In this document: positions 45,987 through 53,061 of the stretch, piece by piece
How the letters are laid out: the number at the start of each line of letters is the position of its first letter
How positions within the stretch are numbered: the stretch's first letter is position 1
Position numbers and translations under genes: made by a program
Notes under the pieces: generated by a model
The model's input: the letters and a program-made list of their open reading frames with translations, nothing else
What the model was told of the DNA's origin: nothing
Database searches by the model: none
Source of the DNA: Lachnospiraceae bacterium
GTDB lineage: Bacteria; Bacillota; Clostridia; Lachnospirales; Lachnospiraceae
Assembly (NCBI GenBank): GCA_017624235.1
Contig: JAGANL010000002.1
Coordinates: forward strand, 124,001-188,000
Reading direction: 5' to 3'
DNA length: 64,000 nt

Positions 45987-47099
45987 ATGAGTAAACGATT
46001 AGTACATACCCCGGAAGGTGTACGGGACATTTATGGTGAGGAATATGCCGGAAAGCTAAAGGCAGAAGAGCTTGTTCACAATAAATTTGCAGAGTACGGT
46101 TATCAGGATATTCAGACACCGACCTTTGAATTTTTTGATGTATTTTCCAAAGAGATTGGAACAACGCCGTCCAAGGAGCTGTATAAATTTTTTGATAAGG
46201 AAGGAAATACACTGGTTCTGCGGCCGGATTTTACCCCGTCCATGGCAAGATGCGCAGCCAAATATTTTATGGACGAGGATACGGAAATCCGCTTTTGCTA
46301 TCTGGGAAACACCTTTACAAATACCTCAAACCTACAGGGAAAGCTCAAGGAAGTGACTCAGATGGGCGTGGAGCTGATTGGGAATCCCAGCGTGGAAGCG
46401 GATGCGGAACTGATCAGTCTGTTAGTGGAAGCGCTGTTAAATACAGGCTTGAAGGAATTTCAGATCAGTATCGGCGAGGTAGAATATTTTAAAGGACTCT
46501 GTCAGGCGGCAGGCCTGGATGAGGAAACAGAGTCAGAACTTCGGGAATATATTTCCAATAAGAATTACTTTGGTGCGGAAAGCCTTTTGCTGGAAAAGGA
46601 AATTCCGGAGGAATACAGCAGTGTCCTTCTGAAGCTGACGGAGCTGTTTGGAGGCGTAGAGTCTTTGAAGGAGGCCGGAGCTCTTGTGAAAAACGAGCGC
46701 TCCCAGCAGGCGGTAAGGCGCCTGGAAGAGCTTTATGACGTGCTTTGCCAATACGGTGTGGAGCAGTATGTTTCCTTTGACCTTGGCATGCTAAGCAAGT
46801 ATAATTATTATACAGGTGTGATTTTTAAGGCTTATACGTATGGGGTCGGAGATGCCATTGCAAAGGGCGGACGCTATGACAGCCTGTTGTCTCATTTTGG
46901 CAAAGACGCTCCGGCTATCGGGTTTATGATTATTGTAGATGATCTGCTGTCTGCCATTTCCAGACAGGGAATCCGGCTTCCTGCCGCAGAGGAGCTTTTC
47001 GTCATGACCTATACAAAGGAAAACTTTGCAGAGGTCTTACAAAAGGCCAGAGAGCTTCGAAGGAGCGGAAGAAAAGTGGAAATGAGGTTGGAAGCATGA
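45987..47099 (+). CDS. hisZ: ATP phosphoribosyltransferase regulatory subunit HisZ
   Basis: 370 residues. Class II aminoacyl-tRNA-synthetase-like fold related to HisRS: VHTPEGVRDIYGEE, VLRPDFTPSMAR, and YYTGVIFKAYTYGVGDAIAKGGRYD. It lacks the C-terminal anticodon-binding domain of a true HisRS. With the short HisG it forms the octameric first enzyme of histidine synthesis and carries its regulation. It overlaps hisG by four bases (ATGA). Confidence 0.94.
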   Translation: MSKRLVHTPEGVRDIYGEEYAGKLKAEELVHNKFAEYGYQDIQTPTFEFFDVFSKEIGTTPSKELYKFFDKEGNTLVLRPDFTPSMARCAAKYFMDEDTEIRFCYLGNTFTNTSNLQGKLKEVTQMGVELIGNPSVEADAELISLLVEALLNTGLKEFQISIGEVEYFKGLCQAAGLDEETESELREYISNKNYFGAESLLLEKEIPEEYSSVLLKLTELFGGVESLKEAGALVKNERSQQAVRRLEELYDVLCQYGVEQYVSFDLGMLSKYNYYTGVIFKAYTYGVGDAIAKGGRYDSLLSHFGKDAPAIGFMIIVDDLLSAISRQGIRLPAAEELFVMTYTKENFAEVLQKARELRRSGRKVEMRLEA

Positions 47100-47761
47100 G
47101 TGAAGACAGAAAATACATAACATTTGCCCTCGGAAAAGGAAGGCTTGCAAAAAAGACGTTGGAGCTTTTGGAAGAAATCGGCATCACCTGTGAAGAGATG
47201 AAGGATAAGAATACCAGAAAGCTGATTTTTGTTAATGAAGAACTGAAACTGAAGTTCTTTCTGGCAAAGGGGCCGGATGTACCGACCTATGTAGAATATG
47301 GCGCTGCGGATATCGGAGTTGTGGGAAGCGATACCATTTTAGAAGAGGGACGCCGTGTCTATGAGGTACTGGATCTGGGCTTTGGCAAGTGCCGGATGTG
47401 TGTATGCGGGCCGGCAAGCGCCAGAGAGCTGCTGCAGCATCATGAGATGATTCGTGTGGCAAGCAAATATCCGAATATCGCAAAGGATTATTTCTATAAT
47501 AAGAAGCACCAGACCGTGGATATCATCAAGCTGAATGGATCGGTAGAACTGGGGCCGATCGTGGGGCTGGCCGATGTCATTGTTGATATTGTGGAGACCG
47601 GATCTACACTGCGTGAAAACGGATTGGAGGTACTGGAAGAAATCTGTCCTCTTTCCGCACGTATGATTGTCAACCAGGTCAGCATGAAGATGGAAGCAGG
47701 GCGTATCAAGGAATTGATTACCAAAATCCGCGGTAAGATGATGGAGTGCGAGACTCATTAA
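47096..47761 (+). CDS. hisG: ATP phosphoribosyltransferase catalytic subunit, short form
   Basis: First committed step of histidine synthesis: PRPP plus ATP to phosphoribosyl-ATP. 221 residues, the HisG-short length without the C-terminal regulatory domain; it therefore depends on HisZ encoded just upstream. Signatures: FALGKGRLAKKTLELLEE, GAADIGVVGSDTI, and the PRPP loop VDIVETGSTLRENGL. Confidence 0.95.
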   Translation: MSEDRKYITFALGKGRLAKKTLELLEEIGITCEEMKDKNTRKLIFVNEELKLKFFLAKGPDVPTYVEYGAADIGVVGSDTILEEGRRVYEVLDLGFGKCRMCVCGPASARELLQHHEMIRVASKYPNIAKDYFYNKKHQTVDIIKLNGSVELGPIVGLADVIVDIVETGSTLRENGLEVLEEICPLSARMIVNQVSMKMEAGRIKELITKIRGKMMECETH

Positions 47762-47813: not shown

Positions 47814-48005
47814 ATGGAAAACAAAGAGGTAAAGGAACAGGATCTGGAAAACGTATTGGAAATTTTGGAAAATTTTGGAAAATCAGAGACCAGCCGTCTG
47901 AAGCTGGAGGTTTCTCTGGAGCAGAATGATGGCACGGCCAAAAAGCAGTATCATTTGGGAAGATGTGATGTCGGAAGTCCATGGGCGAAGGGAACCTGCA
48001 TTTAA
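47814..48005 (+). CDS. Small protein between hisG and hisD, 63 residues
   Basis: Not recognised as a named family. 63 residues: an acidic helical N-terminus (MENKEVKEQDLENVLEILEN), a Ser/Thr/Arg segment, then a distinctive C-terminus, QYHLGRCDVGSPWAKGTCI, with two Cys. ATG is preceded by GCAGGTAGAG. It lies 52 bases after hisG and ends 29 bases before the hisD start used here. It has no run of His codons and so does not look like an attenuation leader peptide. It may be a small accessory of histidine synthesis (inference). Confidence 0.6.
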   Translation: MENKEVKEQDLENVLEILENFGKSETSRLKLEVSLEQNDGTAKKQYHLGRCDVGSPWAKGTCI

Positions 48006-48034
48006 AATCAGACAGAGCGGAAAGGAAGACGGGT

Positions 48035-49324
48035 ATGAGAACCGTAGTATTGACAGAGGAAACCAGAAAGAATTTACTGGAAGAGCTTTTGAAAAGAAGT
48101 CCGAATCAGTACGGACAGTATGAAAGCACAGTGGCTGAGATTATTGCAGCCGTGCGTGAGAAAAGGGACGAGGCCATTTTTGCCTATACGGAGCAGTTTG
48201 ATCATTGCAGGATCAGTGCAGATACCATACGTGTGACAAAAGAAGAAATCGAAGAAGCCTATACACAGGTGGATGCAGAGTTTGTAGAGGTAATGAAGCG
48301 TTCCAGAGAGAACATCCGGGTCTATCATGAGAAGCAGCTTAGAAACAGCTGGTTTGATGCCAAAGAGGACGGAACGATTCTGGGACAGAAGATTACGCCG
48401 ATTGAAAAGGTCGGAGTCTACGTTCCGGGAGGAAAAGCGGCTTACCCTTCCTCCGTTATGATGAATGTCATTCCTGCCAGGGTAGCCGGAGTAAGCAGAA
48501 TCGTCATGACCACACCGCCTGGGCGGGACGGCAGAATCAATCCGGGTACGTTGGTAGCTGCTGATATTGCAGGTGTGGATGAAATCTACAAGACCGGCGG
48601 TGCACAGGCGATTGCAGCGCTTGCTTTTGGAACTCAAAGTATTCCAAAGGTGGATAAGATTGTAGGTCCGGGAAATATTTTTGTGGCGCTGGCTAAGAAA
48701 GCGGTTTACGGACATGTCAGCATTGATTCCATAGCAGGTCCCAGTGAGATACTGGTGCTGGCGGATGAAACGGCCAATCCACGTTATGTGGCGGCAGATC
48801 TCTTATCTCAGGCGGAGCATGATGAACTGGCATCGGCCATCCTGATTACTACGAGCAGGGAGCTTGCGGAGAAAGTATCTGCGGAAATTGACGGATTTTT
48901 ACAGGAGCTGTCCAGAGCGGATATTATTCGTAAGTCTCTGGAGAATTATGGATACATATTGATTGCAGAGAATCTGGAGGAAGCCATTGAATGTGCCAAT
49001 GAAGTGGCATCTGAGCATATGGAGATTCTGACCAGAGACCCGTTTGCCGTGATGACAAAGATTAAGAATGCGGGAGCGATTTTCCTGGGAGAGTATTCCT
49101 CTGAGCCGTTGGGCGATTATTATGCCGGCCCCAATCATGTGCTGCCGACCAATGGAACGGCACGTTTCTTCTCTCCTCTGAATGTGGATGATTTCTGCAA
49201 GAAATCCAGTATCATATCCTATTCCAGAGAGGCTCTGGAGCGTGCACATGAGGATATTGAGCTGTTTGCAAAGAAGGAAGGTCTGACGGCACATGCCAAT
49301 TCCATACATGTGCGGTTTGAATAA
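48035..49324 (+). CDS. hisD: Histidinol dehydrogenase
   Basis: Zinc- and NAD-dependent, last two steps of histidine synthesis. 429 residues, the usual length. Conserved segments: EKVGVYVPGGKAAYPSSV, GPGNIFVALAKK, IAGPSEILVLADE, QAEHDELASAIL (metal/catalytic His), and PLGDYYAGPNHVLPTNGTARF. The start is ATG 48035 with AAAGGA eight bases upstream; the frame is open to 47981 but that overlaps the small ORF and has no similarity. Confidence 0.96.
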   Translation: MRTVVLTEETRKNLLEELLKRSPNQYGQYESTVAEIIAAVREKRDEAIFAYTEQFDHCRISADTIRVTKEEIEEAYTQVDAEFVEVMKRSRENIRVYHEKQLRNSWFDAKEDGTILGQKITPIEKVGVYVPGGKAAYPSSVMMNVIPARVAGVSRIVMTTPPGRDGRINPGTLVAADIAGVDEIYKTGGAQAIAALAFGTQSIPKVDKIVGPGNIFVALAKKAVYGHVSIDSIAGPSEILVLADETANPRYVAADLLSQAEHDELASAILITTSRELAEKVSAEIDGFLQELSRADIIRKSLENYGYILIAENLEEAIECANEVASEHMEILTRDPFAVMTKIKNAGAIFLGEYSSEPLGDYYAGPNHVLPTNGTARFFSPLNVDDFCKKSSIISYSREALERAHEDIELFAKKEGLTAHANSIHVRFE

Positions 49325-49348: not shown

Positions 49349-49936
49349 ATGGCAAGGAGCAGAACAATCGAGCGAAAGACGAAGGAAACGGATATTCATG
49401 TCATCTTAAATCTGGATGGAACCGGAAAAAGTGAGATACAGTCCGGTATCGGTTTTTTGGATCATATGCTGGAAGGGTTTGCAAAGCACGGATTTTTTGA
49501 TCTGAAATTAAGCTGCAAGGGCGATTTGCAGGTAGACGGACATCATACGGTGGAGGACTGCGGAATCGTGCTCGGAACGGCGATTAAGGAAGCGCTGGGC
49601 GATAAGAAGGGCATTAAACGGTATGGCTATTTCATACTGCCGATGGACGATGCACTGGCGCTTTGTGCTGTAGATTTGTGCGGCAGGCCGTATTTTGATT
49701 ATCAGTGCAGCTTTGAAGCGGAAAGGATCGGAGAGCTGGATACAGAGCTGATTCGGGAATTTTTCTATGCAGTCTCTTATTCTGCAGGAATGAATCTTCA
49801 TATCCGTATGTTAGCAGGAGTCAATGCGCATCATATGGCCGAGGCAATGTTCAAGGCCTTTGCAAAGGCACTGGATCAGGCGGTTTCAAGGGATGAGAGG
49901 ATTACCGATGTATTAAGTACGAAAGGAAGTCTGTAA
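49349..49936 (+). CDS. hisB: Imidazoleglycerol-phosphate dehydratase
   Basis: 195 residues, the monofunctional form. Manganese-binding His/Glu segments: [28 protein letters not shown], and [17 protein letters not shown]. There is no fused histidinol phosphatase. ATG follows GAAAGGATAGC. It precedes the HisF-like/HisIE fusion by 16 bases. Confidence 0.96.
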
Positions 49937-49952
49937 AGGACGGAAAAGAACA

Positions 49953-51257
49953 ATGGAACAGAATTTTAAGAAGTTTATTCCCTGTATTTATCTGTATCAG
50001 GGAAATGCAGTAAAATGTTTTGAAGATCGCACGGTAGTCAGCATGAATGCACCAGAGCTGGCAAAATATTACAGTGACAACAATGCGGATGAGATTTTAG
50101 TGTTCGATCTTTCCAACGGAGATAAGGAGCATGAGGAAAATCTGGATGTGGTCAAAGCTATCTGTGCGGCAGTGGATGTTCCCGTCATTGGAGCGGGTAA
50201 TGTACATCGCATGGAGGATATCAAAAAGCTTCTGTATGCAGGCTGTAAAAAGGCGGCTTTGAATTATTCCAAGCCGGGGAATGTGGAGATTACGGAAGAG
50301 GTTTCCTTAAAATTCGGTCAGGAAAAGATCGTAGCCTGCATCACGAACCGCAGTGAGATTACGGAGAATGCGGCATTGCTGAAGCAGTATGTATCGGAGC
50401 TGATTCTGGTACAGCCCTTTGCCAACGCAGAGAATGCAAAAGCCTGTCTGGAAGCGACCAACCTTCCGGTATTGTTATGTATGAAGGACATTTCGCTGGA
50501 AAAGATACTCGGTGTCATCGGTATGGACGGTGTAAGCGGCATCAGCGGTGAAGTAGTGAATGAAAATGCGAAAGAAATTCAGGCTTTGAAAACGCTGTGT
50601 GCCGGAGCAGGCATTGCAGTCAATACCTTTGAAGCTTCGATTTCCTGGTCAGAGTTTAAGAAAAACAGCGACGGAATGGTGCCGGTAGTGGTTCAGGATT
50701 ATAAGACCGATGAGGTGCTTATGGTGGCATACATGAATGAGGAAGCCTACGAAAGTACCTTAAAGACCGGTAAGATGACCTATTACAGCAGAAGCAGACA
50801 GGAGCTTTGGTTAAAGGGTGAGACGAGCGGACATTTTCAGTATGTGCGTTCCCTGACGGCGGATTGTGATCTGGATACCATCCTTGCCAAGGTATCCCAG
50901 GTAGGAGCGGCGTGCCATACCGGAAATTACAGCTGCTTTTTTAACAAGATCATGGAAAAGGAAAGCGACCGGAGCGAGAATCCTCTGAAGGTATTTGAAG
51001 ATGTGATGGGAGTGATCAAGGACAGAAAGGTACATCCGAAGGAAGGCTCCTATACCAATTACCTGTTCGATAAAGGAATTGATAAGATTTTGAAGAAGCT
51101 CGGGGAAGAGGCAACGGAGATTGTCATTGCAGCCAAAAATCCCAATCCGAATGAGATTAAATATGAAATTTCAGATTTCCTGTACCATATGATGGTTCTG
51201 ATGGTGGAAAAGGGCGTCAGTTGGGAGGAGATTACGACAGAGCTGGCAAACCGTTAA
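49953..51257 (+). CDS. hisIE: HisF-like (pseudoenzyme) / HisI / HisE fusion protein
   Basis: 434 residues, three parts. Residues about 5-225 are a HisF/HisA-type barrel ([46 protein letters not shown]). HisI spans about 226-335, with [12 protein letters not shown] and Cys/Asp metal sites DCDLDTIL and [11 protein letters not shown]. HisE spans about 343-434, with [14 protein letters not shown] and EISDFLYH. HisI and HisE look active: phosphoribosyl-AMP cyclohydrolase and phosphoribosyl-ATP pyrophosphatase. In the barrel both catalytic Asp of HisF/HisA are gone: Tyr13 where HisF has the PCLD Asp, and Thr131 in place of the second. It is last in the operon; real hisA, hisF and hisH are not in this window. 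Confidence 0.9.
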
Positions 51258-51369: not shown

Positions 51370-53061
51370 ATGAAGTACGGATGGATAAGAGGGATGAAGC
51401 GTATTCTGGCGGTTTCATTGGCTGTGGCGATGACCTTCGTGGCAGTACCGCCTGTGGAGACGGAGGCAATTGGTGCAGAGAGTGCGATTGCGGTGGGAAT
51501 TGATGTATCGAAGTATCAGGGAAATGTGAACTGGGGAGCCGTGGCAGCTCAGGGAATTACCTTTTCCTTTGTGAAGGTAGGAAGTGCCAAAAGCGGACTG
51601 GACCCCTATTTTGATGCCAATATGAGAGGCTCTACTGCAGCGGGGCTGCGTACGGGAGTCTACATTTATTCGTATGCGACCAGTGTAGAGGCTGCCGTTG
51701 CAGAGGCAAACTGGGTATTAAGCGTCATTGATCCTTATCCGGTGTCTTTTCCGGTGGTATTTGACATCGAGGATGCCATACATAAAAACCTTGACCCGGG
51801 AACCCTGTCTCTTATGAGCAACGCATTTTGTATGGTTATTGAAGAGGCTGGATATTATCCGATGGTATATTCCGGTCGGAATTTCTTTCGTGACCGTCTG
51901 CCGGGAGTAGTCTATGATAGATGGGTTGCACAGTATAACAGCTCTTTGGAATATGATGGAGCAAGCATCTGGCAGGCAACCTCCAAAGGCGCACTGGCAG
52001 GTATAAACGGCAATGTGGATATGAACTATCTGTTCAAGGATTATTCCGGGCTGATTATTCCTTACGGATGGCTTCCGAGAAAGGGCAGCTATTATTTTTA
52101 TGAAAACTGGAAATTGAAAAAGGGATGGATTGATTATAACGGAGCCAAATATTATTCCGATCCTTCGGGGCGCATGGTGACCGGATGGCAGAAGCTGGAT
52201 GAAGGCGGTGTCCGCTATTTCAGACCGGATGGAATCATGTCGGTAGGCTTCAATAATATTGCCGAGAAATATTATTACTTTGACCCGAATGGCTATATGC
52301 AGACCGGAATGCAGGATATCGGCGGATTTAAGTTCCTCTTTGGAGCCGATGGTGTGATGCACACCGGCTGGCATAATGACGGTGCACATATCCGCTATTT
52401 TATGGCAAATGGTGCAATGGCAACCAGCCTGCAGAAAATCGGAGACGCATACTATTATTTTGATGCAGACGGCTATATGCAGACCGGATTTACGCCTATT
52501 AACGGCTACACCTTCTATTTTGATGCAACGGGTGTATTGCAGAAGGGGTGGATTTCAGACGGAACCTACCGGTACTATTTCAATCCGGCAAACGGCGCTA
52601 TGACAACCGGTATTGCCAATATTGACGGACAGATTTATTCCTTCGACGAAAAGGGACATATGCAGACCGGATTTATTGCTGTAAACGGACAGACCTTCTA
52701 CTTCTCACCTGCGGATGGTACTCTGCAGAAGGGCTGGCTGACCGTTGGATCGAATCGCTATTACCTGACTGCAAACGGAGCAATGGCAACCAACTGGCAG
52801 TTAATTGATGGAAGCTACTATCATTTCGACCAAAAGAGCGGTGTGATGACGACTTATAACTGGGTGGATGCCGGAAACGGACAGAAGTTCTTCGTAGGTC
52901 TGGATGGACGGATGATGACAGGCTGGCAGCAAATCGGAGGAAGTGTTTATTATTTCGGTGAGAATGGATTGTTGGTGACCAATACACAGATGGTGGTAAA
53001 TGGTGTACTGTATCAGCTGGATGCAACAGGAGCGGCAACAGCGCTTGGGGCAGTACAATAA
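51370..53061 (+). CDS. Secreted GH25 lysozyme with cell-wall-binding repeats
   Basis: 563 residues. Signal peptide (about 1-36, RILAVSLAVAMTFVAV). GH25 muramidase domain (about 40-230) with catalytic D45 (GIDVSKYQG) and D132-x-E134 (VVFDIED). From about 240 to the end there are about 14 repeats of roughly 20 residues of the pattern YYFDxxGYMQTGxxxI/W (choline- or wall-carbohydrate-binding type). It cleaves peptidoglycan outside the cell. ATG 51370 has AAGGAG 13 bases upstream; ATG 51394 is an alternative start. Confidence 0.93.
   Translation: MKYGWIRGMKRILAVSLAVAMTFVAVPPVETEAIGAESAIAVGIDVSKYQGNVNWGAVAAQGITFSFVKVGSAKSGLDPYFDANMRGSTAAGLRTGVYIYSYATSVEAAVAEANWVLSVIDPYPVSFPVVFDIEDAIHKNLDPGTLSLMSNAFCMVIEEAGYYPMVYSGRNFFRDRLPGVVYDRWVAQYNSSLEYDGASIWQATSKGALAGINGNVDMNYLFKDYSGLIIPYGWLPRKGSYYFYENWKLKKGWIDYNGAKYYSDPSGRMVTGWQKLDEGGVRYFRPDGIMSVGFNNIAEKYYYFDPNGYMQTGMQDIGGFKFLFGADGVMHTGWHNDGAHIRYFMANGAMATSLQKIGDAYYYFDADGYMQTGFTPINGYTFYFDATGVLQKGWISDGTYRYYFNPANGAMTTGIANIDGQIYSFDEKGHMQTGFIAVNGQTFYFSPADGTLQKGWLTVGSNRYYLTANGAMATNWQLIDGSYYHFDQKSGVMTTYNWVDAGNGQKFFVGLDGRMMTGWQQIGGSVYYFGENGLLVTNTQMVVNGVLYQLDATGAATALGAVQ

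Follow-up and report, generated by a model that had tools for sequence, protein, structure and literature searches.

A HisF-derived pseudoenzyme barrel fused to HisI–HisE in Lachnospiraceae carries a conserved patch that is lost with HisE

Histidine biosynthesis already has a dead paralogue partnering another of its enzymes: HisZ is a silent histidyl-tRNA synthetase paralogue that acts in trans on HisG. Four genes downstream of hisZ, in a 64,000-nucleotide stretch of a Lachnospiraceae genome (hereafter the window), lies a fusion gene with a similar arrangement in cis, a HisF-derived barrel (psF) preceding HisI and HisE. Its closest described relatives are HisF and HisIE. Like HisF (TIGR00735; PF00977), the cyclase subunit of imidazole glycerol phosphate synthase, psF has a whole-domain profile match, a place next to hisIE and a conserved core in its N-terminal half; unlike HisF, it lacks D11, D130 and the DGT and SGGAG loops, has a short β5–β6 segment and carries a new K-K-x-x-Y motif. 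HisIE (NF002747; solved as 6j22 and 7bgm) has the same HisI and HisE domains, to which the fusion adds a 225-residue pseudo-HisF in front.

Fusions joining these same domains are on record: PMC9413887 names hisF–hisI–hisE fusions in a single sentence, and HisA/F–HisIE fusions are described for four archaeal assemblies in PMC11237513, but the passages concerned are silent on lost catalysis or a HisE-linked patch. The relevant passages of a fusion review (PMC1963479) do not treat a barrel–HisIE fusion, and a search by title and abstract opening of the full-text literature, which mostly excludes subscription journals, found no paper on a catalytically dead barrel on HisIE. New here is a patch that is near-invariant in HisE-bearing barrels and lost in HisE-less ones.

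A HisF-type domain precedes HisI and HisE in a histidine operon

The fusion and its operon have the following features:

45987..47099 (+), hisZ, regulatory subunit of ATP phosphoribosyltransferase (TIGR00443, 320.5 bits, above cut-off)
47096..47761 (+), hisG (TIGR00070, above cut-off)
47981..49324 (+), hisD (TIGR00069, above cut-off)
49349..49936 (+), hisB (NF002111, above cut-off)
49953..51257 (+), pseudo-HisF/HisI/HisE fusion gene, 434 aa (open frame and profile matches)
49953..50630 (+), HisF-derived barrel psF, residues 1–226 (PF00977, E 4e-19 on 9–134; full-length HisF profile match)
49989..49991 (+), Tyr13 codon, place of catalytic D11 (sequence and profile alignments)
50343..50345 (+), Thr131 codon, place of catalytic D130 (sequence and profile alignments)
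50721..50942 (+), HisI (PRA-CH), residues 257–330 (PF01502, E 3.8e-35; NF000768 and NF002747 above cut-offs)
50997..51254 (+), HisE (PRA-PH), residues 349–434 (PF01503, E 1.1e-20; TIGR03188 above cut-off)

The HisIE (NF002747), HisI (NF000768) and HisE (TIGR03188) profiles all match the fusion protein above their curated cut-offs; by these domain cut-offs its HisI–HisE part is HisIE, with predicted PR-ATP hydrolase and PR-AMP cyclohydrolase activities. The complete hisZ–hisG–hisD–hisB set lies upstream of the fusion in 56 of 80 loci, as judged from a simple gene list, and most other loci show part of it. The next gene downstream (51370–53061, +) encodes a glycosyl hydrolase family 25 protein with choline-binding-type repeats and is unrelated to histidine. 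A plasmid search with the fusion returned 56 records, every one below 60% identity and none covering more than 80% of the query.

A first-pass annotation, made from the window's sequence alone, had read the N-terminal residues as a HisF/HisA-type barrel fused to HisI–HisE, with both catalytic aspartates replaced. Profile searches agree that residues 1–226 are a HisF-type domain. PF00977 scores 69.4 bits against a gathering cut-off of 23.6, its best stretch covering residues 9–134. The Pfam match ending at 134 had suggested loss of the C-terminal part, a reading dropped in the light of a full-length profile match: a profile–profile alignment with HisF covers the barrel from end to end (224 columns; global mode, probability 99.96), with gaps of 21 residues between β5 and β6 and 7 after β6 in our reading of the strands. 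Since the HisF profile is matched over the full barrel, this is a whole HisF-type domain and not an N-terminal half alone. The barrel by itself reaches 66.0 bits against TIGR00735 (HisF), below the cut-off of 294.55.

Catalytic residues and phosphate loops are missing from the barrel

Alignment with HisFs from the PDB and from the same genome places Tyr13 at D11 and Thr131 at D130, as first proposed, with no conserved aspartate appearing elsewhere in the barrel. The HisF residues D11, K19, F23 and D130 are each present in 34/34 HisFs gathered from these genomes. The accompanying claim that other phosphate-binding and core segments remain stands in part. The window barrel retains G82, K19 (as Lys21) and N103 (as Asn104); F23 has become Asp25 and S/T104 Tyr105, and the C-terminal half has a deletion at the DGT loop and CMKDI in place of SGGAG (in HisF, the two phosphate loops are DGT 176–178 and SGG 201–203). 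The barrel seems unable to perform the old HisF chemistry, as far as its residues can tell. The suggestion that it binds ProFAR or PRFAR is argued against, both phosphate sites being damaged and loop-1 contacts altered; without the DGT and SGGAG loops, the barrel is unlikely to bind ProFAR in the ancestral way.

Loss of both aspartates is usual but not universal, with both aligned in 4 of 233 barrels. Three of these four (L232, L248 and L294, from genomes G327, G303 and G391) read CLDL … AIDL, have no β1–α1 loop and already carry the new motif (EDAKKILYAG in L294); with both aspartates still there, they look like possible transitional forms. Among 81 close relatives, Tyr13 occurs in 78, and position 131 is variable.

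Canonical HisF, HisH and HisA lie elsewhere in the genome

The window contains no hisA, hisF or hisH, as had been remarked, and the genome's matches to them all lie outside it. In this draft genome (80% completeness), the contig of the fusion also carries, some 160 kb away, a HisH–HisF pair in which both proteins score above NCBIfam cut-offs, and a HisA of TIGR02129 (hisA_euk) type is found on another contig (L002:1441-2247, 338 bits); the partners are thus outside the window, not absent. A PF00977 match with a TIGR02129-like pattern is seen in 41 of 54 genomes, named by the model itself in the window's own genome only. Across 44 genomes with psF–HisIE, a full-length HisF match is present in 42 and a HisA-like match in 43, where we told HisF from HisA by the location of each PF00977 match and how it scores. 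The misses fall in incomplete drafts: HisF is missing from G007 (67%) and G017 (87%) and HisA from G024 (60%).

The fusion is common across Lachnospiraceae

Scanning 84,980 species genomes yielded at least 580 confirmed relatives, in which the barrel is not necessarily always present; the best 80 of them are all full fusions (80/80). When 196 genomes of the order were sampled, the matches listed showed a long barrel–HisIE frame in 21 of the 22 Lachnospiraceae that have a HisIE match, and a second family had one such genome (G039). A third family contributes a third kind of barrel–HisI fusion, a 536-aa open frame in G083 (L176:1665-3272) that joins a HisA-type barrel (PF00977) to HisI and HisE.

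A second sample took 150 genera of Lachnospiraceae; apart from the draft that contains the window, completeness was 95% or higher. HisI is found in 144 genera (143 above the cut-off, the 144th being G298), with HisE beside it in 121. The long N-terminal extension is present in 117 of these 121, judged by frame length (348–502 aa), and the barrel was found in 93/93 of the extensions read. The remaining four have plain HisIE (G006, G258) or separate genes (G029, G285). The barrel is neither a decay product nor an oddity, being common across the sampled Lachnospiraceae; the proposed genome search for the same fusion and a coexisting hisF thus gives 117/121 genera and 42/44 genomes, respectively. 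In G156, a further HisF-like match (C2:10859-11245) falls within a 478-aa open frame apart from that genome's HisIE.

The barrel derives from the HisF side and is under selection

Outgroup families retain hisB–hisH–hisA–hisF–hisIE, whole or in part, with hisF directly before hisIE; in one locus (L035) the two are in frame and only a lone TAG separates hisF from hisIE. In Lachnospiraceae, the barrel–HisIE gene occupies the former place of hisF, several operons reading B–A–psF–IE. The hisF of psF genomes sits elsewhere beside hisH, both genes being labelled in 16 of 19 stretches (one or both labels are missing from a simple ORF list in the other 3). A quick tree of 82 barrels, from which 3 very divergent rows had been removed beforehand, splits HisA from HisF (SH-aLRT 94); on the HisF side, 28/28 psF rows form a single clade (100) and all 18 stand-alone HisFs another (98). 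A eukaryote-like HisA row also landed with the HisF group, and the exact root of the psF clade is uncertain owing to long branches. Judged by these comparisons, the barrel is shown to descend from the HisF rather than the HisA side.

Median dN/dS over 15 close pairs (dS <1; 78 of 81 rows usable) is 0.05 for residues 6–135, 0.06 for residues 136–225, 0.02 for HisI and 0.01 for HisE. By this measure the barrel is under purifying selection and is not decaying. It is also the fastest-changing part of the protein, with 25–60% identity to the window protein between genera versus 62–82% for HisI; such quick change outside the patch described below is what weak constraint on those regions would give. 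Having lost its catalytic residues while being kept by selection, the domain is a pseudoenzyme. The first-pass notion of a non-catalytic barrel with a role in HisIE thus gains support from residue loss, purifying selection and a canonical HisF elsewhere, all read from sequence; decay in close relatives, named at the outset as evidence against it, is not seen.

A conserved patch lies on the former HisH side

Two segments of the barrel form a patch made of R86, K91, K92 and Y95 on α3, together with F121 and K125 in the α4–β5 turn:

50208..50243 (+), α3 motif R86-M-E88-D89-I-K91-K92-L-L94-Y95-A-G97, tied to HisE (alignments of barrels)
50313..50327 (+), F121-G122-Q-E-K125, α4–β5 turn, second part of the patch (alignments of barrels)

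Among 50 diverse psF barrels, of which the lowest rows share 25% identity with the window and three are without much of the C-terminal half, E88, K91, Y95, G97 and F121 occur in all 50 and D89, K92 and G122 in 49. The equivalents in 34 HisFs are variable: position 91 is K in 16 and R in 12, position 92 is A in 7, R in 7, K in 5 and L in 5, and position 95 is R in 22 and S in 4; the equivalent of position 125 is Cys in 33/34. Even in rows whose identity to the window falls to 17% outside the patch, 9–11 of 11 patch residues are kept; the minimum among HisE-bearing rows is 7 (L220). Shortened barrels missing much of the second half (L027 in G014, L030 in G039, L171 in G137, L192, L193 and L194) still have ED-x-K-K-x-L-Y-x-G or a close form (EEIKYTLYTG in L030) and the FG turn. 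In true HisF, the end of α3, α4, F120 and D98 form the side that meets HisH, according to the relevant part of PMC8115485; the place of D98 is Asp in 6 and Lys in 108 of 227 HisE-bearing barrels.

The patch is kept with HisE and lost without it

We gathered 236 distinct barrel–HisI proteins and set aside three cut by contig ends (the motif is visible in L155 and L159; L268 ends before it), leaving 227 with HisE and 6 without. The HisE-bearing rows are related rather than independent, 76 of 227 having been fetched for similarity to the window. Counted with and without HisE, R86 occurs in 204 and 0, K91 in 226 and 1, K92 in 222 and 0, Y95 in 227 and 0, F121 in 227 and 1, and K125 in 190 and 0; five HisE-bearing rows deviate at K91 or K92. 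One row counted as HisE-bearing (L196, G318) has its HisE broken by an apparent frameshift and still keeps the patch; the frameshift may be recent or a sequencing error.

Of the 144 genera with HisI, 23 have no PF01503 match at E 0.001 (17 listed directly and 6 inferred from the tally, the match table omitting 7 genomes, of which one has no HisI). These 23 comprise 18 with a short HisI frame (113–173 aa), 3 with HisA–HisI and 2 with barrel–HisI (G237 and G334), and the motif is broken in both of the latter. A wider search added four fusions whose chain has no HisE (G522, G457, G515 and G460); G460 retains K91 and F121. Searched genome-wide at E 0.01, PF01503 has no match in G237, G334, G522, G457 or G515, five of the six.

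The damage is local. The first five HisE-less proteins keep 3–6 of 13 conserved sites in residues 84–126, against 8–12 of 13 elsewhere in the barrel and 42–45 of 45 in HisI; in 81 HisE-bearing rows the averages are 96% for 84–126 and 91% for the other barrel sites, and the lowest values 7 of 13 and 6 of 13, respectively. Close relatives show the same switch: G334 (no HisE) reads EDVADLFTAG where G396 (HisE) reads EDVKKILYAG, the two being 67% identical over 332 aa. G334 and G515, both without HisE, group with G396, G458 and G571, which have HisE, an intact motif and 57–67% identity to G334, and G522 (no HisE) shares a genus code with G005 (HisE and motif). The reverse case is G298 (L191:713-1972), whose HisI is degraded (20 of 45 conserved sites, PF01502 below cut-off, conserved Cys and His lost) and which keeps HisE and 10 of 11 patch residues. 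A candidate reading in which the patch docks HisI was dropped, because HisE-less proteins keep HisI without the patch and G298 is the opposite case.

A quick tree from an alignment stripped of the patch columns places at least four HisE losses on starred branches, and the best tree has five. Y95 is lost in 4 of 4 independent pairs (sign test p 0.125, a test that cannot reach 0.05 with four pairs). A coupling analysis of 227 sequences, comparing links from barrel residues 84–127 to HisE with links from the barrel to HisI, did not confirm a contact: the HisE links were not significantly in excess among the top 30–200 pairs (Fisher p 0.14–0.43), with p 0.011 for the top 400. Comparison of HisI and HisE positions between fused and unfused proteins found only lineage-like differences, the unfused set including the contig-cut fusion L155; among 60 matched PDB sequences, none covers barrel and HisIE together in its best stretch.

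The chemistry as such does not require the barrel: HisI is found without one in 21 of the 23 HisE-less genera, and other families have plain HisIE that lacks it. Where relatives have lost the barrel, HisE is mostly missing too. Treating the barrel losses in seven HisI-only genomes as separate events was abandoned: the best tree has three losses, and a single clade is not rejected (p-AU 0.136). HisH is present in 6 of the 7 HisE-less genomes that have no barrel.

A pseudo-HisF that may serve HisE

On balance we favour a role for pseudo-HisF in serving HisE in cis, through a contact that we infer from the shared losses of patch and HisE; the earlier suggestion that the barrel regulates or supports HisIE is supported in this sharper form, narrowed to the HisE part. 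The patch would touch or complete HisE, either holding it next to HisI or lending Lys and Tyr side chains for PR-ATP handling, and the barrel's former HisH-binding side would be re-used for HisE. Both ends of a TIM barrel lie on its α–β-turn side, so HisI–HisE would emerge where HisH sat, with the old docking face well placed. The dead barrel could then be a cis scaffold for step 2 of histidine synthesis and the hand-over to step 3. A bolder version is tentative: that the dead HisF barrel, formerly a glutaminase partner, is now a built-in part of the PR-ATP pyrophosphohydrolase, its HisH face supplying Lys, Lys, Tyr and Phe to HisE, which would make step 2 in most Lachnospiraceae dependent on a pseudoenzyme domain of the same polypeptide.

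The dependence of the patch on HisE would also fit a dock for a protein of step 1 or 2 (HisG/HisZ) that passes PR-ATP from HisG to HisE, a patch that would be useless without HisE and decay. The genes for HisG and HisZ precede the fusion within hisZ–hisG–hisD–hisB in those 56 of 80 loci, and HisZ is itself named a regulatory subunit; docking in trans needs no fusion, however, and we regard this reading as doubtful. Basic and aromatic residues of near-absolute invariance (R86, K91, K92, Y95 and K125) could equally make a small-molecule site, a basic cluster sensing AMP, PR-ATP, ProFAR or a signal nucleotide and setting HisE activity. This is unlikely: the classical substrate pocket, on the opposite face, is degraded, no ligand is known, and E88 and D89 sit within the same motif. 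Docking of HisH, raised in the first-pass annotation as a possible function and here taken as tying the glutaminase of IGP synthase to HisIE, is right about the location, the patch lying on α3/α4 and F120, which meet HisH in true HisF (in the part of PMC8115485 concerned). It is nevertheless very improbable as a present function, with the patch going with HisE and the D98 place rarely Asp.

Two remaining explanations deny the barrel any new role. If it were a passive relic of a fused hisF, kept for folding or since in-frame deletion is rare, one could expect the fastest-changing part of the protein, the C-terminal half largely lost in several lineages (L027, L030, L171 and L192–L194) and the barrel wholly lost in some, all of which are observed; a dN/dS of 0.05–0.06, a patch invariant in domains otherwise 17% identical and its HisE-linked loss at least four times leave a relic improbable, largely refuted by the patch. 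A barrel still enzymatic, with a HisA or HisF side activity, is scarcely credible: both aspartates align in those 4 of 233 rows, but the window protein is without them and without the DGT and SGGAG loops, and separate HisF-like and HisA-like matches exist in 42 and 43 of 44 genomes.

With pseudo-HisF serving HisE as the preferred reading, losses that occurred in nature indicate, at the level of single residues, which partner a dead enzyme domain serves, in a textbook pathway of abundant gut bacteria. The fusion, with possible transitional forms that have both aspartates, offers a system for asking how a protein-docking face gets re-used once catalysis is lost.

Histidine operons with no recognisable HisE

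The finding also points to bacteria with histidine operons yet no recognisable HisE. HisI without PF01503 above cut-off is seen in G003, G009, G011, G015, G018, G027, G088 and more genera, at completeness of 93–99%. Such genomes must either carry out step 2 with another enzyme or not be prototrophs. HisE stands in brackets in the relevant passage of a gut-genome reconstruction (PMC9026213), which we take to mean that HisE-less histidine producers had been noticed before. Three loci without HisE encode HisA–HisI fusions (L136 in G018, L137 in G009 and L189 in G329); in L189, HisA and HisI both score above their family cut-offs, placing two consecutive steps in one chain.
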